Assembly: GCA_017649745.1 (NCBI GenBank)
Contig: JAGCGE010000141.1
Location: 3,042 to 67,041, forward strand
Origin: Clostridiales bacterium
Lineage (GTDB): Bacteria; Bacillota_A; Clostridia; Saccharofermentanales; Saccharofermentanaceae
Direction: 5' to 3'
DNA: 64,000 bases
The notes beneath the pieces are model-generated. The model made no database searches and was not told the DNA's origin. It saw only the letters and a program-made list of their open reading frames with translations. The stretch's first letter is position 1. The number at the start of each line of letters is the position of its first letter. A program made the translations under genes and the position numbers. Positions 12,608 to 58,853 of the stretch are shown here, in pieces.

Positions 12608-12623
12608 TACCTCCGCAAAAATT

Positions 12624-12640
12624 ACACACCTTATAATAGG
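12624..12640 (+). promoter_or_regulatory. ACAC/-10 element (best consensus, TATAAT)
   Basis: ACACACCT TATAAT AGG. No TTGACA-like box lies 16-19 nt upstream. It precedes the 29-codon gene at 12672. Confidence 0.65.
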
Positions 12641-12671
12641 AAACTAAGGTTTATAACGAAAGGAGAAAAAC

Positions 12672-12779: not shown

Positions 12780-12823
12780 ACCTCGCTTACTTACTCTCTA
12801 ACGAGAGTGCGTCCGCAATAATT

Positions 12824-12840
12824 ACACACTATATAATAGA
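12824..12840 (+). promoter_or_regulatory. ACAC/-10 element (TATAAT)
   Basis: ACACACTA TATAAT AGA. The surrounding segment, from about TCCGCAA to CTTTGATT, is nearly the same as that at 13230-13270. Confidence 0.65.
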
Positions 12841-12883
12841 ACATTAACTTTGATTTTTCGTTTAATGAAAGCGAGGTAATTTT

Positions 12884-13222: not shown

Positions 13223-13237
13223 CCTCCGCAAAAATTA

Positions 13238-13254
13238 CACACTATATAATAGAA
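13238..13254 (+). promoter_or_regulatory. ACAC/-10 element (TATAAT)
   Basis: ACACACTA TATAAT AGA, within a near-duplicate of the 12811-12855 segment. Precedes the gene at 13291. Confidence 0.65.
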
Positions 13255-13290
13255 CATAAACTTTGATTGTACAAATAGGAGGTACAAATT

Positions 13291-15356: not shown

Positions 15357-15386
15357 GGAGACGAATAACAAGTCTCCGTACTTTTT
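15357..15386 (+). terminator. Intrinsic terminator
   Basis: GGAGAC pairs with GTCTCC, followed by GTACTTTTT. Confidence 0.75.
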
Positions 15387-15403
15387 ACACATCCTTTAAT
15401 AGT
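15387..15403 (+). promoter_or_regulatory. ACAC/-10 element (TTTAAT)
   Basis: ACACATCC TTTAAT AGT, before the gene at 15435. Confidence 0.5.
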
Positions 15404-15434
15404 GTAGGCATTTTATGTTAAAGGAGGAGAAATC

Positions 15435-24104: not shown

Positions 24105-25001
24105 ATGATAGGACAGATTATTGAATCAATTGTTAAGCATAAGGCAGCAATAGCTCTCGGTGGAGCTATGATTGGTGTTGGTATCACTGCTGTTATGGCT
24201 AGCAGAGATGCTAAAAGTTTAGATGAAGCATTAGAAATTGCTGAATACGATAAGGATCAGGAACTCACGGATACTCAGGTTATTGAAATGTTTAAAGAGC
24301 AAGGCATTTCAGAAGAAGAAATACAGGAGTTTAAAGACTATGATGTTATTCCTGAAGAATTTGAATATCTTACAAAGAAGGAAAAGGCAATTATATTTGC
24401 TAAGAATTACTGGAGAACAGGATTAGTAATGGCTGTAACGTTTGCTCTTATGATTTTTAGTCATGTTAGTATGGCTAAAGAGATAGCAGTAGCTACAGCA
24501 GCATTGGGAGCACTAAGTACGAAATACAAAGATCTGAAATCATATTTGAAGGAGAAGTATCCTGAACAGTATGAAGAGATTATGAGACGTCTAAATCGAG
24601 AAAATGCCCGGAAGAAAATTTCTGAAACGGGTTTTAAAAAGGAAGAATCTTATGATGGACGTAAGAGATACTACTTCCCTCTTTCTGATCAGATAGTGTT
24701 TATGAAACCTGAGGATATGGTCAAGGTCCAGGGATACATGTCACGTACAATCGGTACCGAGATGGAATTATATTTGAATGATATTCTCGACTACATCCAT
24801 ATTGAACTCGGTTATAAGGATGTTCATATCTCAGATGTTGACTATAAGTGGTCATTCCCTGAAGATTCTGTAGGAGATGTAGACTTCCCTCAGATCATGT
24901 TTGAGTATGACGATGTTCTTGATGAAGATAAGTCTTATGTAGTATGTCAGGTTGTTACAACGAGCTATGATCCTGAAGTAATTATTAATAAGAGTGCATA
25001 A
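24105..25001 (+). CDS. Two-helix membrane protein, paralogue 1 (DUF6353-like)
   Basis: 298 residues behind AAAGGAGGAAAGAG. N-terminal helix at about residues 13-30 (A-I-A-L-G-G-A-M-I-G-V-G), a charged region, a second helix at about 105-125, then a soluble domain. The plan matches the genes at 26314 and 29496: helix, charged loop, helix ending in a small-residue run, then a domain with an (N/E)-x-x-L-N-x-(I/V)-x-D-x-(I/L) helix and G-Y/G-F turn. I think this is the DUF6353 phage family, of unknown function. Confidence 0.65.
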   Translation: MIGQIIESIVKHKAAIALGGAMIGVGITAVMASRDAKSLDEALEIAEYDKDQELTDTQVIEMFKEQGISEEEIQEFKDYDVIPEEFEYLTKKEKAIIFAKNYWRTGLVMAVTFALMIFSHVSMAKEIAVATAALGALSTKYKDLKSYLKEKYPEQYEEIMRRLNRENARKKISETGFKKEESYDGRKRYYFPLSDQIVFMKPEDMVKVQGYMSRTIGTEMELYLNDILDYIHIELGYKDVHISDVDYKWSFPEDSVGDVDFPQIMFEYDDVLDEDKSYVVCQVVTTSYDPEVIINKSA

Positions 25002-25004
25002 ATT

Positions 25005-25021
25005 ACACAGCCTATAATAAG
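25005..25021 (+). promoter_or_regulatory. ACAC/-10 element (TATAAT)
   Basis: ACACAGCC TATAAT AAG, beginning 4 nt after the stop of the preceding gene. Confidence 0.6.
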
Positions 25022-25063
25022 AAGGAACATTAACTAATAGTTTTTATTATAGGAGGTAAAACT

Positions 25064-25924: not shown

Positions 25925-26173
25925 ATGAAAATAGCAATAATAGCAAGGAGTGTTTACTGTCGCAGAATACTGGAATTCCTGAAGTTCTCCGCTGAAGGTA
26001 CATATGAGTTCACTGGAACAAAGTATTACGGACATAATGAGGTGGCTGTATTTATATTCGAATCTACAGAAGAGGCAGAGGTTATCAATACCGAGATATG
26101 GATTAAGGGTAATTTCCTAAATGATGACGTTATTACTCTTAGGTTTGCGAATGATCTACCTATGCTGGAATAA
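25925..26173 (+). CDS. Unknown small protein
   Basis: 82 residues starting directly after the previous stop, with AAAGGAGGTAAAGTA upstream. Alpha/beta; the centre has V-F-I-F-E-S-T-E-E-A-E-V-I-N, an ACT-like strand-helix pattern. No assignment. Confidence 0.6.
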   Translation: MKIAIIARSVYCRRILEFLKFSAEGTYEFTGTKYYGHNEVAVFIFESTEEAEVINTEIWIKGNFLNDDVITLRFANDLPMLE

Positions 26174-26178
26174 AAATT

Positions 26179-26195
26179 ACACACCATATAATAGG
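26179..26195 (+). promoter_or_regulatory. ACAC/-10 element (TATAAT) before tRNA-like RNA
   Basis: ACACACCA TATAAT AGG. What follows is a three-codon ATG-GAA-AAT-TGA frame and a tRNA-like sequence rather than a gene. Confidence 0.65.
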
Positions 26196-26205
26196 AGGCA
26201 ATGGA

Positions 26206-26270
26206 AAATTGACTAAGGTTAGCATCCAATTCCAACGGATGTAGGGTTCGATTCCCTATCAATGGACCAT
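26206..26270 (+). tRNA. tRNA-like element, possibly degenerate tRNA-Gly(UCC)
   Basis: A perfect T-arm (TAGGG TTCGATT CCCTA, 26242-26258) is followed by TCAATGG, A and an encoded CCA ending at 26269. Upstream, CATCC/GGATG form an anticodon-like stem with the loop AATTCCAAC, in which TCC sits after T as in tRNA-Gly(UCC). ATTGA pairs with TCAAT as a short acceptor. There is no D-arm, the variable loop is almost absent and the total is about 64 nt, so a standard tRNA finder may reject it. It is directly downstream of a promoter element. Confidence 0.45.
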
Positions 26271-26313
26271 GTCTCCTAACGTTTCATTAATTATATTTGA
26301 AAGGAGAAAGGAA

Positions 26314-32020: not shown

Positions 32021-32047
32021 CATGGTGTTGAGCGTAGCGAATAATTT

Positions 32048-32064
32048 ACACGTCTTGTAATAGA
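32048..32064 (+). promoter_or_regulatory. ACAC/-10 element (TGTAAT)
   Basis: ACACGTCT TGTAAT AGA, followed within 20 nt by a terminator hairpin. Confidence 0.55.
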
Positions 32065-32120
32065 AGGTATGAATAAGGATAGAGGATGTGCTATTATGGC
32101 ATGTCCTCTTGTTCTTTCTT
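32065..32120 (+). ncRNA. Short RNA or leader peptide between element and terminator
   Basis: After the element comes an 11-bp hairpin (AGAGGATGTGC with GCATGTCCTCT, 32081-32109) and TTGTTCTTTCTT. A 23-codon frame starts at ATG 32070 behind GAAGG and passes through the hairpin, so an attenuator peptide is the alternative. Confidence 0.4.
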
Positions 32121-38991: not shown

Positions 38992-39005
38992 GGGGTGCAA
39001 AAAAA

Positions 39006-39022
39006 ACACGTCCTATAATAGA
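39006..39022 (+). promoter_or_regulatory. ACAC/-10 element (TATAAT)
   Basis: ACACGTCC TATAAT AGA, followed by a terminator hairpin rather than directly by a gene. Last copy in the window. Confidence 0.6.
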
Positions 39023-39080
39023 AGGAGAGAGGAAAATGAGAGCACACACTGCTTTCAGCACCTCTCCTTTTCTTTTTTTC
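39023..39080 (+). ncRNA. Short structured RNA between element and terminator
   Basis: AAGGAGAG (39022-39029) pairs with CTCTCCTT (39062-39069) and is followed by TTCTTTTTTTC. The enclosed 32 nt hold further small complementarities. An ATG at 39036 opens a 26-codon frame reading into the next gene, so a leader peptide is possible. Confidence 0.4.
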
Positions 39081-39090
39081 TGGAGGTTAT

Positions 39091-39928: not shown

Positions 39929-42838
39929 ATGCGTAACGACGAATTAATGCACTATGGTACTAAACGTCACTCTGGAAGATACCCTTGGGGATCTGGAGAG
40001 AATCCATACCAGAGAGACAATAAAAACTTCTTACGAAGATGGCATGAATTAAAATCAGAGATTGGTGAAGTTGAAGCTGCCAAGGCTCTGGGCATGACCA
40101 TGAGAGAAGCTAGAGCAGCGGCATCTACTGCTAAGAAAGAAAAAATTAAAGAGGATATGCAGGCAGTGTATGATAGAAGATACAAAGCCAAGATGTCCCC
40201 TAAAGCTATAGCAGAAGAGTTAGGACTTTCTGAAACAACAGTAAGAAACTATCTTAAGCCGTCAGCTGCTGAAAAATTAATAGCAAAAAATGCTGTTAAG
40301 GACATGATTAAGAAAGAGGTTGACGAGAAAGGATACGTTGATGTATCTAAAGGCGCAAACTATAATATCGGCATCACTCAGGATAAACTTGAGAAAACAT
40401 GTAAGTCATTGCGTGATGACAATGGATATGCATTACGAAAGTTAAAAATTAAACAGTTAGCAACTGGTCAGTTCACTACAATGATGGTTCTGTGTAAACC
40501 AGGAACAACTGTGAAAGATGCATATGAGCATGTAACTGATATAAAACCTCTTGGCCAGTATACGATTCACGATACTGATGGTACTACAAAGTTAGGAATG
40601 TTACCACCAAAGAATATCAGCATGAATCGAGTAAAGATAAATTATGCTGATACAAGTGATGGTGGGCAGAAAGATGGATTAATAGAACTTCGCAGAGGTG
40701 TTCCCGATCTTAATTTGGGTAATGCTACATATGCGCAAGTTAGAATAGCTGTTGACGATAAGTATTATCTTAAAGGCGTCGCGGCATATGGTGATCCGAA
40801 GGACTTTCCTAAGGGTGTTGACATAATATTCAACACAAGTAAGACATCAGATAAACCGATTGATAAAGTATTGAAGGAACTTAAAACGGATACCGATAAT
40901 GTGTTCGGTGCCACGATCCTTCAGGATAAAGATCTTAAGAATGTAAAGCAGTTTTATTACGACAAGAATGGAGAGAAGTTACAATCAGCATTAAATGTCG
41001 TTAACGAGGAAGGTAAATGGGATGATTGGTCTAAAAACTTAGCATCCCAAATGTTATCAAAACAATCTCCGGAATTAGCAAAGAAACAGTTAAACTTAGC
41101 TGTTGCTAAATCCAGATCAGACTTAGATGATATCATGCATCTAACAAATCCCACGTTACAGAAAAAGTTATTGGAAGAATATGCAAATGGTGCAGATGCA
41201 GATGCTGCTCATCTTAAAGCAGCCGCTCTTCCTAGGCAATCAACAAAGTTAATCTTGCCTATTACATCCTTGAAAGATAACGAAGTATATGCTCCATCTT
41301 ATAGAAATGGTGAGAGTGTTGTACTTATACGTTATCCTCATCAAGGAATCTTTGAGATACCAGAGCTTAAGGTTAATAACCATAACACTGAAGGTCGTAG
41401 AGTTATGGGTACAACACCTACTGATGCCATTGGTATTAATGCAAATGTAGCAGCAAGGTTATCTGGTGCAGACTTTGATGGTGATACTGTTTTAGTTATC
41501 CCTGTTAAGACAGCAGCAGGAGTTAGAACAGTACCAATTAAGACTGCAGAACCACTAGCAGGATTAAAGAACTGGGATGAAACATACAAAAAGATTTACA
41601 AGTTACCAGACGATGCACCCGAGATAGATACCGCTACAAAGAATCAACAGATGGGTATCGTAACTAACTTAATAACTGATATGTCATTGAAAGGAGCATC
41701 CCTTTCTGAGATAGAGCGAGCAACAAAGCACGCCCAGGTTATTATAGATAGTCAGAAGCATCACCTGGACTACAAGAAATCAGCACAAGACCAGAGGTTA
41801 TCAGAGCTACATGAGAAGTGGCAAGGTAAGAAGACTGGTGGTGCATCTACTATAGTATCTAGAGCAGAGGGTGAGTACCATGCCGAAACTGTTAAGGGAT
41901 ACTATAAGATAGATAAGAAGACAGGAGAGAAGATAGAAGTACCTACAGGTGATATGCACCTGAAGATAGTATCTCCTGCAAAGAAGAAGGACATAACGGA
42001 AGAGCAATGGAAGACATTCAATAAGATAGACAAAGAGTATAGGAAAGCTAAAGCAGAGGAGGCGGCCTATATCCGGACCCTTACCCCCGAGGAGAGGGAG
42101 AAGTATGTGCCAAAGGTTAAGTACCCCACATCTAAGGTTAACGGTATAAAAGTTAAAGAGGTACCCACAACTTACAAGACCACAAAGATGGCCTCAGTTA
42201 AAGATGCATATGAGTTAACTTCAAATCCTAAGAAACCTAACCAAATGGAAGCAATTTATGCAGATTATGCTAACTCTATGAAATCACTTGCTAATGAGGC
42301 TAGAAAAAAGATGGCTAATACAGAAGGTGGTAAAAGGAACCCTGCTGCAGCTAAGACCTATGCTAAGGAAGTTGAATCATTGGATGCTAAGTTAGTGAAT
42401 GCCTTAAAGAATGCACCTAAAGAAAGGCAAGCACAAATCCATGCTAATTCTGTAGTATCTGCAGAACTAAATAGTCATCCTGAAATCAAACAAGATAGTG
42501 ACAAACTAAAACGTTTGCGTATGCAAGCGCTTAATAGTTCTCGCGCTTTGTTTGGTGCTGATAAGAAAGCTGTTCAAATCACAATCACAGAAAATGAATG
42601 GAAAGCAATTCAAGCAAATGCTATTTCAGCAACAAAACAAAGAGAAATCTTTGACAATTGTGATTCTGATTATTTGAAAAAGCTTGCGACACCAAAGATT
42701 AATGGTAAGCAATTAACAACAGCAAAAGTAGCAAGAATTAAGAGTATGAAGAACTCAGGTTATACTATGCAAGAGATAGCCGATGACCTTGGAGTATCAA
42801 CTAGTACAGTATCAAGAGCACTTAAGGGTGAACTGTAA
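39929..42838 (+). CDS. YonO-like single-chain RNA polymerase with a virion-type N-terminal tag
   Basis: 969 residues. D-F-D-G-D at 515-519, preceded by a S-G-A segment, is the metal-binding signature of double-psi beta-barrel RNA polymerases of the YonO/crAss-phage class. An ancillary conserved block (around 540-640) follows. Two helix-turn-helix units are visible: at about 89-109 (P-K-A-I-A-E-E-L-G-L) and at the last 30 residues (T-M-Q-E-I-A-D-D-L-G). Residues 5-23 (E-L-M-H-Y-G ... Y-P-W-G-S-G) form a tag shared in its L-x-H part with head-module proteins. The enzyme would transcribe phage genes. Confidence 0.82.
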   Translation: MRNDELMHYGTKRHSGRYPWGSGENPYQRDNKNFLRRWHELKSEIGEVEAAKALGMTMREARAAASTAKKEKIKEDMQAVYDRRYKAKMSPKAIAEELGLSETTVRNYLKPSAAEKLIAKNAVKDMIKKEVDEKGYVDVSKGANYNIGITQDKLEKTCKSLRDDNGYALRKLKIKQLATGQFTTMMVLCKPGTTVKDAYEHVTDIKPLGQYTIHDTDGTTKLGMLPPKNISMNRVKINYADTSDGGQKDGLIELRRGVPDLNLGNATYAQVRIAVDDKYYLKGVAAYGDPKDFPKGVDIIFNTSKTSDKPIDKVLKELKTDTDNVFGATILQDKDLKNVKQFYYDKNGEKLQSALNVVNEEGKWDDWSKNLASQMLSKQSPELAKKQLNLAVAKSRSDLDDIMHLTNPTLQKKLLEEYANGADADAAHLKAAALPRQSTKLILPITSLKDNEVYAPSYRNGESVVLIRYPHQGIFEIPELKVNNHNTEGRRVMGTTPTDAIGINANVAARLSGADFDGDTVLVIPVKTAAGVRTVPIKTAEPLAGLKNWDETYKKIYKLPDDAPEIDTATKNQQMGIVTNLITDMSLKGASLSEIERATKHAQVIIDSQKHHLDYKKSAQDQRLSELHEKWQGKKTGGASTIVSRAEGEYHAETVKGYYKIDKKTGEKIEVPTGDMHLKIVSPAKKKDITEEQWKTFNKIDKEYRKAKAEEAAYIRTLTPEEREKYVPKVKYPTSKVNGIKVKEVPTTYKTTKMASVKDAYELTSNPKKPNQMEAIYADYANSMKSLANEARKKMANTEGGKRNPAAAKTYAKEVESLDAKLVNALKNAPKERQAQIHANSVVSAELNSHPEIKQDSDKLKRLRMQALNSSRALFGADKKAVQITITENEWKAIQANAISATKQREIFDNCDSDYLKKLATPKINGKQLTTAKVARIKSMKNSGYTMQEIADDLGVSTSTVSRALKGEL

Positions 42839-42858
42839 AGGAGTTGAAAGTTAGAATT

Positions 42859-43185
42859 ATGAAAGTTAAAGACAGAAAGTTAGAAGATTACGGAAAACCT
42901 TGCATACTTTCGACAAAAGATAATCCTTTTAATCCCTTTACCGATTACGATGATTGGCGAAATTATGACGTTTCACCACGTTGGATTCCGGAAGTTGGAA
43001 TGAAAGTTGCAACATATTGTCGAGAATATCAAGCGCGTGAAGCGATCACGTCGGATGATTTATCAGATGAGGAAAATAACCGAATAATTAGCGATGCTAT
43101 CGACGATATTATAAGGTTAGATCCTTTTCATATCTACATTAAAGTTATCGAACCAAGTAAAGTTAACTATAGAAATGGTTATTAA
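42859..43185 (+). CDS. Unknown protein downstream of the RNA polymerase
   Basis: 108 residues from ATG 42859 (a TTG at 42844 would add five residues; AAAGGAG ends 15 nt before the ATG and abuts the TTG, so the start is uncertain). Aromatic and acidic with W-R-N-Y-D, then helices. Its start region contains two copies of the GAAAGTTA sequence that is repeated downstream. No family recognised. Confidence 0.55.
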   Translation: MKVKDRKLEDYGKPCILSTKDNPFNPFTDYDDWRNYDVSPRWIPEVGMKVATYCREYQAREAITSDDLSDEENNRIISDAIDDIIRLDPFHIYIKVIEPSKVNYRNGY

Positions 43186-43228
43186 TAAGATAGCTTTATG
43201 TAAAGTTAATATTTAATGGTACCCCTCA

Positions 43229-43385
43229 CTATGAAAGTTAGAGTGGATGCCATTTAATTGCTGCGATCTATGAAAGTTAGAATATTATTGCTTTCGTATT
43301 TAAACTTAATCTATTTATGCGTGCATTTATCACAAATAGCTATGAATCTATGAAAGTTAGACCTACCTAAGCTATGAAAGTTAGA
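43229..43385 (+). repeat. Four direct repeats CTATGAAAGTTAGA
   Basis: The ATGAAAGTTAGA core lies at 43231-43242, 43270-43281, 43350-43361 and 43374-43385, always preceded by CT. Near copies occur at 42844 (TTGAAAGTTAGA) and 42859. Spacings are 39, 80 and 24 nt. Placed just before the packaging genes, it could be a TerS-binding or operator array. Confidence 0.75.
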
Positions 43386-51233: not shown

Positions 51234-51839
51234 ATGTGGAAACCATCAGTCACTCCAAGCGATGTTATTCGACATTCGCAAGGTCCTTGGAAAGACGAAC
51301 TCGCTCATCATGGCATCCTGGGTATGAAATGGGGTGTAACCAATGGACCGCCATATCCTTTAAAAGACGAAGATCATTCTGCTCGAGAAAAGAGAATGGC
51401 AAGGAAAATGTCAAGACAGGAGCGAGCAGAAGCTAGAAAAAGAAAAAAGCAGGCAAAGCACGATCTGAAAGCTCAAAGAAAAGCCGAGAAAGCAGAAGCA
51501 ATTAGACAGAAGGTAATAAAAACCGGCGATGCTAAACAGATAGCGAAGTATAAAGGTAAGATAAGTAATGAAGAGTATGATGAGTTATTCAAGCGATTGG
51601 CCAACGAAAAGCATCTTGATGAGCTTACATCATCTCAGATGAGAGAAATAGCTTCAAAAATAAATTCCATAAAGAATGTAGTTAGTGGAATCAAAGCTAC
51701 TTCTGATGCTGCTATAGACCTTTATAATAACGGAGCCGATGTTTACAATGCGTTTCTTGCAAAGGAAGGATCTAGTGCGCGAAGTATAGAACGATCCGGT
51801 AAGAAAAAGAAAAAAAGACAATCCGATGATGACGATTAA
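51234..51839 (+). CDS. Basic head-module protein with N-terminal L-x-H tags
   Basis: 201 residues behind AAGGAGAATTGCT. Two tags in the first 35 residues: V-I-R-H-S-Q-G-P-W-K and E-L-A-H-H-G-I-L-G-M-K-W-G. Then a very basic helical stretch, an acidic/helical middle and a C-terminal lysine run followed by D-D-D-D. The size, charge and position fit an internal virion protein or scaffold. See finding on the tag. Confidence 0.6.
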   Translation: MWKPSVTPSDVIRHSQGPWKDELAHHGILGMKWGVTNGPPYPLKDEDHSAREKRMARKMSRQERAEARKRKKQAKHDLKAQRKAEKAEAIRQKVIKTGDAKQIAKYKGKISNEEYDELFKRLANEKHLDELTSSQMREIASKINSIKNVVSGIKATSDAAIDLYNNGADVYNAFLAKEGSSARSIERSGKKKKKRQSDDDD

Positions 51840-53620: not shown

Positions 53621-53920
53621 ATGTGGCAACCTACAGTTAGTTCAGATACTATATGGCATTCCGCTTTAGCTCATTCAGCAAAAGGTACATCTTGGATAAA
53701 GAAAGAGCATAAGTATATCGAGAAAAGAAATGGTAGATATATTTATAAAACAAAAGACGAGATCAAAGAAGCTAGGAAAAAAGAGAAAGCGCGCCGGAAA
53801 GCATTAGCAAAGAAACAACGAAAAGAAGAGAGAAGATTGAGTAGAGAAAGATGGCGTAATATTGATAACATAATTAAAGGATCAATATTATTGAGTATGT
53901 CTAAAGAGAAGGAAAAATAA
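53621..53920 (+). CDS. Tagged basic protein (NGRYIY family)
   Basis: 99 residues behind GAGGAGGTAA. M-W-Q-P-T-V-S-S-D start, then T-I-W-H-S-A, L-A-H-S-A-K-G tags and H-K-Y-I-E-K-R-N-G-R-Y-I-Y. The rest is lysine/arginine-rich helix. Related to the next two genes. Likely packaged DNA-contacting protein. Confidence 0.6.
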   Translation: MWQPTVSSDTIWHSALAHSAKGTSWIKKEHKYIEKRNGRYIYKTKDEIKEARKKEKARRKALAKKQRKEERRLSRERWRNIDNIIKGSILLSMSKEKEK

Positions 53921-53933
53921 AGGAGATAAAATT

Positions 53934-54752
53934 ATGTGGAGACCAACAGTTAGCTCAGATGAATTGATGCATTCTCGTGGACCTTGGAAGAATCATAAGT
54001 ATAAGGCTATTGTAAATGGTCGATATGTTTATGATAACACTATAGGGGCTGCTAAGAAGGCAATCTATAATACCAACCTTTATAAAAACTATAGATTGCA
54101 GAAAGGTATTAAAGCCGGTAGAGCACGCCGTCAGGCAAATCTCGAAGCAGATCCTGCTTATAGGCAGAAGAGGATGCGTGAAGCTGACGATGCCAGAGCA
54201 AGAAAGGTTGTTAAAAACAAGTTCAAATCTGTTTCAAATCTTATTGGTCTGGGTAAGCAGAAGGTTAGTAATTACTTAGAGAAGCTTAAGACTTCTCAGA
54301 GAGTAAATAGCGCTATGAGACGTCGTAATGCTGCAGTTAGATCAATAAAGCGCGGTCAGGCAATCGATAAGGCTGTTAATAGTGTTAAAACAGCATATCG
54401 CGTAAATAGTGCTAAAGCACGTCGCAATGCAGCAGTTGCTGGCATAAAAGGTAAGCAGGCAATTGGTAATGCTGTTAATAGTGTTAAAACAGCATATCGC
54501 GTTAATAGTGCTAAAGCACGTCGCAACGCAGCAGTTGCTGGTATAAAAGGTAAGCAGACAGCCGCAAAGGTTTCCGGTAATATTAGGAAGACTGCTGGCA
54601 ATGCAGCAAGCGCTGCAAAAAAGACTGCTTACAATACCAAGCTTTACAAGGGATATAGGCAGGCTCAGGGTGTTAAGGCCGGACGCAAGCGTTATGCAGC
54701 TAGAAGTGCGAGGGTTAAGAAGAACCGTAAGTGGTCAAAGATCGTAAGATAA
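53934..54752 (+). CDS. Tagged histone-like protein with 33-residue repeats
   Basis: 272 residues behind AAGGAGATAAAATT. M-W-R-P-T-V-S-S-D-E-L-M-H-S tag, then H-K-Y-K ... N-G-R-Y-V-Y, then lysine/arginine/alanine helices with three 33-residue repeats (118-216) built on R-V-N-S-A-x-x-R-R-N-A-A-V. The high alanine and basic content resembles linker-histone tails. It probably condenses DNA in the capsid. Confidence 0.65.
   Translation: MWRPTVSSDELMHSRGPWKNHKYKAIVNGRYVYDNTIGAAKKAIYNTNLYKNYRLQKGIKAGRARRQANLEADPAYRQKRMREADDARARKVVKNKFKSVSNLIGLGKQKVSNYLEKLKTSQRVNSAMRRRNAAVRSIKRGQAIDKAVNSVKTAYRVNSAKARRNAAVAGIKGKQAIGNAVNSVKTAYRVNSAKARRNAAVAGIKGKQTAAKVSGNIRKTAGNAASAAKKTAYNTKLYKGYRQAQGVKAGRKRYAARSARVKKNRKWSKIVR
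54285..54581 (+). repeat. Three 99-bp tandem repeats
   Basis: Units start at 54285, 54384 and 54483. The second and third are nearly the same at DNA level, the first is diverged. Each encodes 33 residues. Confidence 0.9.
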
Positions 54753-54764
54753 GGCGGTGAATCC

Positions 54765-55493
54765 ATGAATGAAGAACTTAGACACTCAGCAAAAGGTACG
54801 ACTTGGAAAAAGAAGGTCCATAAGTATATCGACATTATAAACGGAAGATATGTTTATCCACAGGAAGAAGTAAAAGGATTCGACACAAAAAAGTATACCG
54901 AGCTGTATAAGCAAAGAGTAAGCGAGATTAAGAAGCAGCATGCTATCGAGGAAAGAAATCGAGTAGAAGAAAAGCATAAGAACGACAAAAAGCGACCGTC
55001 TAGTAAATTTACTTCAGAGCGCCTTCAGAAGAGAGCAAATGAAATATTATCTTCAGGAAAAACTGATTCAAAAACATTAGCTAGAGGAAAAGATTTCTTA
55101 AAGAAAGCTAACCAAGCTCGTAATACTTTCTGGAAGAATGCTATGAATTCAGCTAAAGGCGTCGGTCAGTCTCATTCCGATTTTTATAAGAGGGCAGGCG
55201 AAGGTAAGGCAAAAAATAAGACCTATCGCAAAAATCAGCGTCGCGCTAAGCTTGAATCCCTAATCTTTAAGGGGAAGAGAATAGTTAAAAAAGCTCTTAG
55301 TAAACTCGGTGTCGACATGAGTAATCGCGCAATTCAGAGTCGAAAGAAAAAGAAGCGTTCGAAATCAAAGATAACACTTAGACCTAACTCTAGTAGTCGT
55401 ACAACTAAAAAGAGATCGAATACAAAGGTTACTGTAACATCAAATCTTATGCCGGCAGGCACAAAGAAAACAATTAAACCGAAAAAGAGGTAA
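54765..55493 (+). CDS. Tagged basic protein (NGRYVY family)
   Basis: 242 residues behind TAAGGCGGTGAATCC. E-E-L-R-H-S-A-K-G-T tag at residues 3-12, then H-K-Y-I-D-I-I-N-G-R-Y-V-Y, then a strongly basic helical and serine-rich body ending in a K-K-T-I-K-P-K-K-R tail. Same family as 53621 and 53934. Confidence 0.6.
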   Translation: MNEELRHSAKGTTWKKKVHKYIDIINGRYVYPQEEVKGFDTKKYTELYKQRVSEIKKQHAIEERNRVEEKHKNDKKRPSSKFTSERLQKRANEILSSGKTDSKTLARGKDFLKKANQARNTFWKNAMNSAKGVGQSHSDFYKRAGEGKAKNKTYRKNQRRAKLESLIFKGKRIVKKALSKLGVDMSNRAIQSRKKKKRSKSKITLRPNSSSRTTKKRSNTKVTVTSNLMPAGTKKTIKPKKR

Positions 55494-56768: not shown

Positions 56769-58853
56769 ATGGCAGTAAGAGTACCGAAAGACTATGATTT
56801 CTGTGGCTATGCTACCAGAAATAATGTCCTGTGTACAGATGGCCGTACGATTCGAAAGAATGCGTTCAAGCATCAGGATGGCAAAACTGTCCCGCTCGTT
56901 TGGAATCATCTCCATAACGACATGAACAATGTTATTGGACATGCAATTCTTGAAAATCGTGACGATGGTGTATATTGCTATGGGTATTTAAATGATACTG
57001 ATCAGGCTGAAGTTGCAAGAAAACAGCTTAGGCATAAAGATATCAGATCCCTTTCTATATATGCTAACCATCTTAAACAGAAGGCCGGTGATGTAATTCA
57101 CGGTATGATTCGCGAAGTTAGCCTGGTGTTAGCTGGTGCTAACGATGGAGCCTACATTGATTGGGTTCTTGAGCATGGCGACGAAGGCGGCGATGATGCA
57201 GCAATTATCTACCCTTTCATTGAGAAAGGATTCCTTTATCATGGCGACGATGATTACGATGATGAAGATGAAGACTTTGACGATGAAGATGAGGATGATG
57301 AAGACTTCGACGATGAAGATGAAGACCTCGACGAAGATGATGACAGTGACGAAAAGACCATAGGCGATGTTCTTGATACATTAGATGAAGAACAGATGGA
57401 GGCTGTAGGAGCTCTTATCGACGCTATAGATGGTAATGAAAATGCAGAGGAGGAATTTATGGAACACTCAGATGGAAATATCGGCGAAGTTCTTGATACA
57501 TTAGATGATGATCAGATGGATGCTGTCTTTGCTCTTATCGGAGCTATGGGCGATGATCAGGATGATGACGACGAGTATGATGACGACGAGTATGATTCTG
57601 ATGAGTATGATGACGATGACTTCGACGATGATGATTACGATGATGACGATGATTATTACGAGGAGGATGATGACATGAAACACAACGTGTTCGATGGTGA
57701 CACATACCGCGGAGATTACCTCAGCCATTCAGATATGGAAGCAATCTTCGACGATGCTAAGAGAAACGGATCTCTTAAGGAGGCTTTCCTGGCTCATTGC
57801 GAGGCAATGCAGCTTGATGCTGATGAGCTTATGCATGACGATGTTGCTCAGAATTATGGTATTGACCATATCGAGGCTCTGTTCCCGGAGTACAAGAACC
57901 TTAACACTCCTCCGGAATGGATCAAGAGAGATGTAACATGGGTACCTAAGGTACTTAATGGCGCTCACCACACACCTTTCAGCCGCATTAAGTCTATGTT
58001 TGCAAATCTTACAGAAGACGAGGCAAGAGCTAAGGGTTATATCAAGGGTCATATGAAGAAGGAGCAGGTATTCTCACTGCTTAAGAGAACCACAGATCCT
58101 TGCACCGTTTACAAAAAGCAGAAGCTTGATCGTGATGATCAGATCGATATCACTGATTTCGACGTTGTTCAGTGGATCAAGTCTGAGATGAGAGGACAGC
58201 TGGATGAGGAACTTGCTCGTGCAATCCTTGTTGGTGATGGACGTCTCACATCTGATGAGGATCACATACCTGAAGATCACATCAGACCTATCTGGAAGGA
58301 TGCTGATCTCTTCGCAATCAAGGTAACAATCACCATGAAGGCTGGAGCTACAGACGATGATAAGGCTAAGGCTCTTATCCGTGCTACAATTAAGGCTCGT
58401 AAGTACTACAAGGGCTCAGGTTCACCTTCAATGTTCACAACAGAGGACGTTCTTTCTGATATGCTTCTTCTTGAGGACGGTATCGGTCATTCTCTGTATG
58501 ATTCTGAGTCAGCTCTTGCAACAAAGTGCCGTGTAAGCTCTATCGTTCCTGTTGAGATCATGGAAGGTCTTACAGATGAGACTCAGGGTGATCTTGCTGC
58601 AATCGTTGTTAACATGAGCGATTACAATGTTGGTGCTGATAAGGGTGGTGCTGTTGCAATGTTCGAGGATTTCGACATTGATTACAACCAGAATAAGTAC
58701 CTGATCGAGACACGTTGCTCAGGTGCTCTTGTTAAGCCTTATTCTGCACTTATCTTCTCCTTCAAGCAGGGTGAGGGTGAGAACACTGTCATTTCCTTCT
58801 CTGGTGATGGAATGGACGAGTTCACAATCAAGGATGAGGAATCTAATGGCTGA
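56769..58853 (+). CDS. Prohead protease - acidic linker - major capsid fusion
   Basis: 694 residues behind AAGGAGGAAAAATCAAA. Residues 1-130 match the HK97 prohead protease (W-N-H with H47, L-S-I-Y-A with S96, R-E-V-S-L-V). Residues about 160-310 are an acidic linker with two copies of a V-L-D-T-L-D-x-x-Q-M-x-A-V helix. From about 380 is the HK97-fold capsid (A-R-A-I-L-V-G-D-G, Y-K-G-S-G-S-P-S-M-F-T-T, F-E-D-F-D-I-D-Y-N). Several hydrophobic-x-His sites (H136, H158, H233, H305, H320, H343, H356) lie in or near the linker and may be self-cleavage sites. One chain provides protease, scaffold and capsid. Confidence 0.88.
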   Translation: MAVRVPKDYDFCGYATRNNVLCTDGRTIRKNAFKHQDGKTVPLVWNHLHNDMNNVIGHAILENRDDGVYCYGYLNDTDQAEVARKQLRHKDIRSLSIYANHLKQKAGDVIHGMIREVSLVLAGANDGAYIDWVLEHGDEGGDDAAIIYPFIEKGFLYHGDDDYDDEDEDFDDEDEDDEDFDDEDEDLDEDDDSDEKTIGDVLDTLDEEQMEAVGALIDAIDGNENAEEEFMEHSDGNIGEVLDTLDDDQMDAVFALIGAMGDDQDDDDEYDDDEYDSDEYDDDDFDDDDYDDDDDYYEEDDDMKHNVFDGDTYRGDYLSHSDMEAIFDDAKRNGSLKEAFLAHCEAMQLDADELMHDDVAQNYGIDHIEALFPEYKNLNTPPEWIKRDVTWVPKVLNGAHHTPFSRIKSMFANLTEDEARAKGYIKGHMKKEQVFSLLKRTTDPCTVYKKQKLDRDDQIDITDFDVVQWIKSEMRGQLDEELARAILVGDGRLTSDEDHIPEDHIRPIWKDADLFAIKVTITMKAGATDDDKAKALIRATIKARKYYKGSGSPSMFTTEDVLSDMLLLEDGIGHSLYDSESALATKCRVSSIVPVEIMEGLTDETQGDLAAIVVNMSDYNVGADKGGAVAMFEDFDIDYNQNKYLIETRCSGALVKPYSALIFSFKQGEGENTVISFSGDGMDEFTIKDEESNG

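Follow-up and report, generated by a model that had tools for sequence, protein, structure and literature searches.

How does a phage RNA polymerase (RNAP) come to bear, at its very N-terminus, a short peptide that recurs on proteins encoded around the terminase and portal genes? This question was raised by an open reading frame (ORF) at positions 39929-42838 of a 64,000-nucleotide stretch from a Clostridiales bacterium (assembly GCA_017649745.1, contig JAGCGE010000141.1), the whole of which is referred to below as the window. The initial annotation of this ORF had described it as an RNAP of the YonO type with a virion-packaging tag, which would be injected with the phage DNA and could transcribe the early region. 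The observation behind that proposal was confirmed in the analysis described here, and its interpretation was partly supported. It is considered probable that the protein is a virion RNAP, loaded into the head through its tag, injected, and firing the early genes from a dedicated promoter.

The polymerase and its N-terminal tag

The gene and its parts are listed below, in which phi-x-H stands for a hydrophobic residue two positions before a histidine, HTH for helix-turn-helix and pLDDT for the predicted local distance difference test.

39929..42838, + strand: single-chain two-barrel RNA polymerase of 969 aa, with an ATG start, PHROG 4291
39938..40012, + strand: N-terminal tag, residues 4-28 (DELMHYGTKRHSGRYPWGSGENPYQ), with columns at least 90% conserved and residues 1-29 at pLDDT <50
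39944..39952, + strand: L-x-H step of the tag, with a putative prohead-protease cut after His8 predicted from the abundance of phi-x-H in capsid/protease linkers
40139..40303, + strand: N-terminal HTH, residues ~71-125, sigma-70 region 4-like, PF08281 above cut-off
41471..41485, + strand: catalytic DFDGD, residues 515-519, present in 119/120 homologues
42704..42832, + strand: C-terminal HTH, residues 926-968, Pfam HTH families above cut-off

By its sequence and predicted model, the ORF is a single-chain double-psi beta-barrel (DPBB) RNAP with the DxDxD metal-binding pattern, for which RNA synthesis is predicted and DNA would be the template. The DFDGD had been placed correctly at residues 515-519 from the outset, and the DPBB assignment was supported by the presence of this motif in nearly all homologues and by the fold matches; the columns of D515, D517, G518 and D519 were invariant across 75 aligned sequences. 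The protein matched PHROG 4291 ('RNA-dependent RNA polymerase') over residues 3-967 with 1021 bits, and homologues were found in 250 phage records, 249 of which covered at least 80% of the query and all of which were below 60% identity. Their hosts were Arthrobacter (95), Gordonia (55), Streptomyces (54), Lactococcus (13) and others, and a database search returned 7,477 homologues among 7,999 scored candidates; the enzyme is therefore not peculiar to one gut phage. The notion of a packaged polymerase peculiar to gut siphoviruses was not supported: 204 of the 250 records belonged to Arthrobacter, Gordonia and Streptomyces phages, and a siphovirus virion RNAP was already known, in another form, from phage P23-45.

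In a fold search with the predicted model, QDE-1 was the best match and RDR2 and the phage gp64/gp62 RNAPs were the nearest others, residues 226-795 being aligned to RNAP and QDE-1 chains. QDE-1 and RDR2 are cellular RNA-silencing enzymes that bear no phage tag. An RNA-dependent RNA polymerase, as the RefSeq name has it, is allowed by this fold, but that reading was set aside because the protein has HTH domains and the phages share a conserved DNA motif. The N-terminal HTH also scored 40.5 bits against TIGR02937, under its cut-off of 42.9, and the Pfam assignments refer to the 25 families listed out of 58 that matched. In the PDB, the single sequence found nothing at E<=10, and the profile found only HTH, repeat-protein and other weak matches.

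What stood of the YonO assignment was the general enzyme class, in that YonO of SPbeta is likewise a single-chain RNAP with DxDGD. The sequence similarity was not significant: one BLASTP comparison gave 28% over 89 aa around DxDGD (E 0.071), and hhalign against the single YonO sequence gave nothing significant. YonO also has no tag and, in the excerpts available of the literature on it, transcribes late genes, and the nearest folds were those named above. The orf75 product of Lactococcus phage 1706 (PHROG 4291) belongs to the same family over its full length and bears the same tag; members of this family are named in the records either as an RNA-dependent RNA polymerase or as an 'HTH protein'.

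The N-terminus of the RNAP reads MRNDELMHYGTKRHSGRYPWGSGENPYQ, with E-L-M-H-Y-G at residues 5-10 and G-R-Y-P-W-G at residues 16-21, so that the span of 5-20 given at first was right to one residue; the consensus is L-x-H-Y-G....S-G-R-Y-P-W-G-S-G. In the 75-sequence alignment, where column identity averaged 47%, conservation reached at least 90% at H8, Y9, G10, R13, S15-G23 and P26-Q28, and the tag is thus among the best-conserved parts of the RNAP though predicted to be disordered. Since residues 8-28 are mostly conserved at this level and residues 1-29 have a pLDDT below 50, the tag is read as a conserved flexible linear signal. A search for it in other phage RNAPs, as had been suggested, was fruitful: the strict regular expression matched 108 of the 120 best homologues, the other 12 comprising ten variants (RYPYG, RFPYG or no His) and two proteins that start downstream of the tag, and it matched 77 of 80 RNAPs in viral-contig loci, with two more degenerate and one (L078) having the tag further in. 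In a strict six-frame search the tag was found in the window only in the RNAP and the ORF at 51234, and in phage 1706 only in orf7 (twice) and orf75, and its sharing is above chance because so few ORFs were found. The phi-x-H step was present in the tag of 102 of the 120 homologues, while ten had the tag without it, six started at MHYG and so had no -2 position, and two had no tag.

Some variants of the tag deserve mention in their own right. The L078 RNAP, of 1,041 aa, has an additional N-terminal stretch that makes its HYGTPRHSGRYPWG tag internal. In the homologue group P0018-P0035, ten RNAPs have lost the -2 hydrophobic residue or the His and retain [YE]G....SGR[YF]P[WY]G; these natural variants could show how far the protease site is needed. 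Covariation of the x in L-x-H between the RNAP and head tags of 18 phages or contigs was suggestive (LQH in both for 1706) and inconsistent, and was not counted.

The tag on head-module proteins

The head-module genes of the window that bear on the tag are the following, the three basic proteins of the second to fourth lines having been recognised from the sequence.

51234..51839, + strand: head-module basic protein with a DELAHHGILGMKWG tag (DUF7211), PF23847 at 33.2 bits (cut-off 27) over residues 20-36; just 5' of the terminase
53621..53920, + strand: basic protein with an ALAHSAKGTSW... tag variant
53934..54752, + strand: basic protein with a DELMHSRGPW tag variant
54765..55493, + strand: basic protein with a EELRHSAKGTTW tag variant
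56769..58853, + strand: prohead protease (S78)/major capsid (HK97) fusion, whose linker phi-x-H motifs include DELMH at residues 352-356; PHROG 3270 at 705 bits

The RNAP tag is the same module as the LxHYGVKGMKWG tag of head-module proteins. The RNAP-type form, H[YF]G....SGRYP[WF]GSG, was found on four small non-RNAP proteins from three contigs, which ruled out a tag restricted to the RNAP. All four sat near the terminase large subunit: in G085 one lay just upstream of it and another between terminase and portal, and in G083 and G067 they lay downstream of it. GMKWG-tagged neighbours were observed beside them in two of the three contigs. Three of the four matched PHROG 7021, a family that bears GMKWG in Mudcat, one of these matches (residues 106-176) being clear of the tag, and the fourth matched the RNAP family only, from the tag onward. 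Since the RYPWG form thus occurs on proteins of a family that has GMKWG in Mudcat, the two tag forms replace each other on head-module proteins, and no other observation argues as strongly that the RNAP tag is a head tag.

The head form was found in relatives as L-x-H-[YHF]-G-V-K-G-M-[KR]-W-G and close variants, mostly around the terminase and portal. In the stretches examined, proteins with this tag numbered two in Mudcat, six in ReqiPoco6, three in Chikenjars (one of them outside the terminase/portal block), one each in P1046 and Scap1, and three in Pippin15. The GMKWG tag corresponds to DUF7211 (PF23847), annotated in Pfam as of unknown function, which matched the window ORF at 51234 and the tagged proteins of P1046, ReqiPoco6 and Mudcat; against the four RYPWG-tagged proteins this profile gave no match. 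The likeness seen at the outset between the RNAP tag and the head-module proteins at 51234 and 53934 was borne out (DELAHHGILGMKWG and DELMHSRGPW). A second tag style, LxHS followed by an HKYI/NGRYxY-like stretch, was noticed in the three basic proteins of the terminase-portal interval (53621-55493) and in the later part of 1706 orf7.

The pentapeptide DELMH is an exact match common to the RNAP tag and the linker of the window protease/capsid fusion, in which PF04586 was above cut-off and PF05065, TIGR01543 and TIGR01554 were below it. After 31 of 127 capsid sequences had been dropped, their linker not being delimited by the regular expression, the other 96 gave 41 non-redundant linkers, in which 278 of 296 His residues had L, I, V, M or F at -2. 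The capsid part had such a residue before 26 of its 177 His and the protease part before 145 of 265, and the linkers contained [LIVMF]xH[SAG] 161 times vs 11.7 in shuffles. A second set of 28 linkers was drawn from 38 sequences, a hand-made subset (longer ORFs) of the listed matches from which nine were not delimited and one was redundant. It gave 176/205 for the linker, 21/82 for the capsid and 107/180 for the protease His, and [LIVMF]xH[SAG] numbered 115 vs 9.1 in shuffles. Because phi-x-H is enriched in the linkers, we infer that the prohead protease cuts after phi-x-H, and the L-x-H step of the RNAP tag would probably be cut by it as well.

The T4 capsid targeting sequence has the consensus LxE, which is unrelated to LxHYG....WG. 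The likeness between the two systems is one of arrangement: in the excerpts available, the T4 sequence is a brief N-terminal stretch that directs cargo proteins to the prohead and is proteolytically processed, and here a short N-terminal peptide is common to the RNAP and the proteins flanking terminase and portal, its association with the head being indicated by gene position and by the labels of phage 1706.

In the record of that phage (EU081845), both orf75, the RNAP, and orf7 were labelled 'structural protein' by the depositors, the RefSeq name of orf75 being 'RNA-dependent RNA polymerase', and the ReqiPoco6 record describes its own RNAP as 'similar to Lactococcus phage 1706_gp75 structural protein'. 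Of the 76 ORFs of 1706, 11 are labelled structural or major structural, and the chance that two random ORFs would both be so labelled is 1.9%. The labels presumably derive from mass spectrometry. From the depositors' label on this relative, echoed in the ReqiPoco6 record, the RNAP is probably present in the virion, and the packaging first proposed gains support in this way. In orf7 itself (L012 2501-3889), two GMKWG-type tags and more L-x-H-S motifs occur in one structural protein, as if the tag were repeated.

A promoter-like motif ahead of early and middle genes

Sites in the window were scored with a position weight matrix (PWM) trained without the test genomes, at a threshold of 14 bits.

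12613..12642, + strand: early promoter-like motif, the best in the window, 37.0 bits with the PWM from other phages
12813..12842, + strand: early promoter-like motif, 34.6 bits (PWM)
13226..13255, + strand: early promoter-like motif, 35.8 bits (PWM)
15376..15405, + strand: early promoter-like motif, 15.5 bits (PWM)
24994..25023, + strand: promoter-like motif, 24.9 bits (PWM)
26168..26197, + strand: promoter-like motif, 18.9 bits (PWM)
32037..32066, + strand: promoter-like motif, 24.6 bits (PWM)
38995..39024, + strand: promoter-like motif, 21.8 bits (PWM), 5' of the nuclease-exonuclease-RNAP gene run

The motif, TCGCA-N4-TTACA-N5-TATARTRG, was found in phages of Firmicutes and Actinobacteria that share the RNAP. 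The early region of the window contains repeats of TTACACANNNTATAATA, with ten matches at no more than one mismatch, all on the + strand between 12622 and 26193; when up to three mismatches and both strands were allowed, 33 matches were found against 15.9 +/- 3.8 expected, and none of 100 shuffles had as many. Phage 1706 has TTTTACANNNNCTATAGTAG with spacing equal to that of the window motif, and Mudcat, Scap1 and Pippin15 have the same element with an upstream TCGC. In viral contigs the pattern CGCN5TTACAN5TATARTAG was found in at least 120 stretches and a scrambled pattern in 6 in all, and positions outside the search pattern were also kept (T before CGC in 85%, A after it in 77%). Of 136 sites, 103 had a ribosome-binding site and start codon within reach on the 3' side, the median distance being 28 nt. 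A sigma-70 scan of the window early region was uninformative, with 70 matches vs 77.1 expected.

With the PWM, sites on the forward and reverse strands numbered 8/0 in the window and 18/0, 11/0, 17/0, 17/0, 8/0, 12/2 and 3/0 in seven other genomes, where a Markov model led to an expectation of 0-0.3 per strand per genome. Nearly all were in the non-structural part of these eight genomes, before early or middle genes, and none was found in their terminase-to-major-tail block. Six of the eight, including the window (38995), had a site some 0.9-1.2 kb ahead of the RNAP, the corresponding stretch of G028 falling outside the data. The role in the early region envisaged by the initial annotation is supported by this conserved early promoter-like motif.

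Motif and RNAP were also linked across contigs. Among 36 of the 120 motif loci (the longest contigs among the 80 listed), the RNAP was found in 25 of 30 contigs of at least 40 kb and in 3 of 6 of 30-40 kb, and in none of the 6 scrambled-pattern contigs, which were shorter (6-36 kb). The two were on the same strand in all 28 contigs that had both, a count that includes 1706 and so is not wholly independent of the discovery of the motif. When contigs of at least 40 kb were chosen by the GMKWG tag from those listed (13 of 120 tag loci, 19 of 100 control loci), the RNAP was present in 13 of 13, one being cut at the contig end, and in 0 of 19 controls. A replicase search with a single sequence found nothing; an alignment query gave 80 loci, of which the 29 in contigs of at least 45 kb were used, and 27 of these had the RNAP and 21 the motif at no more than one mismatch, vs 0 of 16 controls (taken from the 19) with the motif. 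The reversed pattern was absent from all 45 contigs. Motif and RNAP agreed in strand in 19 of the 20 replicase contigs that had both, and the exception, G091, may be a chance match. The loss of the motif in phages without the RNAP was considered as a test, and with only 2 of 29 such contigs it had no power.

Two structures adjoin motif sites. A strong hairpin and a T-run lie at 39021-39075, between the motif at 38995 and the nuclease-exonuclease-RNAP genes, and could be an attenuator of RNAP expression; over 39021-39090 the minimum free energy was -23.3 kcal/mol (z -2.3), with 7 of 200 shuffles as good. Directly 3' of another site, a tRNA-like stretch (26193-26275) has a T-arm-like GGTTCGATTCC and a CCA end and no D-arm, and in it ARAGORN and Rfam found nothing and the fold z was only -1.6.

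Proposed mechanism, alternatives and known systems

In the proposed mechanism, the flexible N-terminal tag would load the RNAP into the phage head, where the prohead protease would cut it at L-x-H, and the enzyme would enter the host with the DNA on infection. Through its built-in HTH domains, it would then fire TCGCA-N4-TTACA-N5-TATARTRG ahead of the early and middle genes. Upstream of the RNAP gene run the same promoter stands in most genomes examined, and newly made RNAP would amplify the programme before being packaged into progeny. We infer the injection, the early timing and the recognition of the motif by the RNAP; if the early and middle operons, and mostly the RNAP genes, do depend on one promoter, the first enzyme must come from outside, and the virion would supply it. 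Slightly more probable than not, though less so than the mechanism itself, is a widespread and hitherto unrecognised class of virion RNAPs, namely free-standing two-barrel enzymes with a sigma4-like HTH and a portable bipartite head tag (a phi-x-H site and a YG....WG binding motif) that would also load other cargo, running a self-amplifying early circuit from a compact promoter across phages of Firmicutes and Actinobacteria.

The alternative that survives best, itself unlikely, has the RNAP reading the early motif yet synthesised only once infection has begun, from transcripts of the host RNAP; its presence in the virion would then be incidental, and its tag would serve, for example, to tether it to a replication or packaging site. 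The gene position in Scap1, Mudcat, 1706 and contig89, at the end of the non-structural part and outside the late genes, would suit such an enzyme, as would the TATAAT-like box in the motif and the fact that the virion evidence from 1706 is a database label. It would fit less well with the strong conservation of the tag and its exchange with the one on terminase-flanking proteins, and with the structural label on both tagged 1706 ORFs.

Next, and with a rather small chance of being right, it may be the host RNA polymerase, by itself or helped by a phage factor, that reads the motif, leaving the packaged RNAP to other work, such as transcription-coupled DNA entry or primer synthesis. TATARTRG does resemble a -10 box, and tag, motif and RNAP are co-inherited, which makes their linkage unspecific. 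However, TCGCA and TTACA at fixed spacings of 4-5 nt are unlike a sigma-70 -35 box at 16-18 nt, the motif is kept from Lactococcus phages to those of Arthrobacter, Streptomyces and Curtobacterium, and the RNAP has a sigma4-like HTH of its own.

It is improbable that the tag is a protease propeptide or a chaperone-binding peptide of head proteins, taken up by the RNAP for stability or maturation and not for targeting. Although the phi-x-H sites of the capsid linkers suggest proteolysis at L-x-H, the strongest conservation lies past the predicted cut (G....SGRYPWGSG) and persists where phi-x-H has been lost, a pattern more in keeping with binding than with simple removal. A late-gene RNAP like YonO, which is of the same general class and in the excerpts available transcribes SPbeta late genes, is very improbable and was rejected as first choice, given early and middle motif positions with no above-threshold site in the terminase-to-major-tail block of eight genomes, no significant similarity to YonO, and no tag on YonO.

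Several observations weigh against the reading of a head-loaded, injected RNAP that fires the motif. Chief among them is the joint inheritance of tag, RNAP, capsid, replicase and motif, owing to which co-occurrence by itself does not identify the RNAP as the enzyme that reads the motif. The motif includes a TATAAT-like box that the host RNAP could perhaps use, and 36 of the 136 sites overlap an ORF of at least 100 aa. No motif site lies near the RNAP of 1706; a weak site (31433) lies beyond the major tail gene in G003, and G027 has two reverse-strand sites; with an earlier PWM, no site was found in contig89 or in the examined parts of ReqiPoco6 and Chikenjars. The motif occurs without the RNAP in 5 of the 30 contigs of at least 40 kb, in 3 of the 6 of 30-40 kb, and as a match in one of the two replicase contigs without RNAP. 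On the side of the tag, protease-domain His residues also often have L, I, V, M or F at -2 (145/265 and 107/180), and 10 of 120 RNAP homologues are without the hydrophobic -2 residue or without His, so that cleavage at L-x-H is not universal. Finally, the virion evidence for the 1706 RNAP is a database label, and orf62 and orf71 of 1706 are labelled structural and have no tag.

Virion RNAPs as such are known, and in the excerpts available of PMC5512222, PMC5467207, PMC5513430, PMC11536984, PMC7481178, PMC7824862, PMC8270828, PMC12205980, PMC10770324, PMC10052503 and PMC4155818, used together with PMC4110766, they are described for N4, crAss-like and jumbo phages. The same excerpts describe gp96 of the Thermus phage P23-45 as a tape-measure-fused siphovirus virion RNAP that transcribes pre-early genes, AT-rich promoters being the hypothesis of its authors, and gp64 of that phage as a non-virion RNAP. 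Whereas gp96 rides in the tail by virtue of its tape-measure fusion, the RNAP of the window type is free-standing with a short head-type tag; the virion RNAP of jumbo phage SPN3US is head-carried, as proposed here, but multisubunit. From the N4, crAss-like, jumbo and P23-45 enzymes taken together, the present one differs in being free-standing, in sharing its tag with head-module proteins, in its spread through phages of both Firmicutes and Actinobacteria, and in the shared motif. The crAss-like phi14:2 gp66 was not among the 50 VIA matches listed, which is no evidence of absence. In the literature search, no paper among the matches listed tied the PHROG 4291 family to a virion tag or promoter, none dealt with DUF7211, and GMKWG or RYPWG occurred as letters only in two papers, both unrelated by title. 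The free-standing tagged variant and its link to a tag family of unknown function appear to be new in the literature searched.

If the proposed mechanism is true, infection by a large set of siphoviruses (250 phage records), among them gut phages and the actinophages that serve teaching and research, would begin with an injected RNAP of the phage's own, and their early genes would be independent of the host enzyme. DUF7211 would then have a function assigned, other injected cargo proteins could be found in phage genomes by a short peptide signal, the cleavage specificity of the prohead protease would be predicted, and a directly testable enzyme-promoter pair would be at hand.

As a minor feature of the locus, five direct repeats of TATGAAAGTTARA occupy positions 42855-43385 of the window, between the RNAP gene and the late genes.

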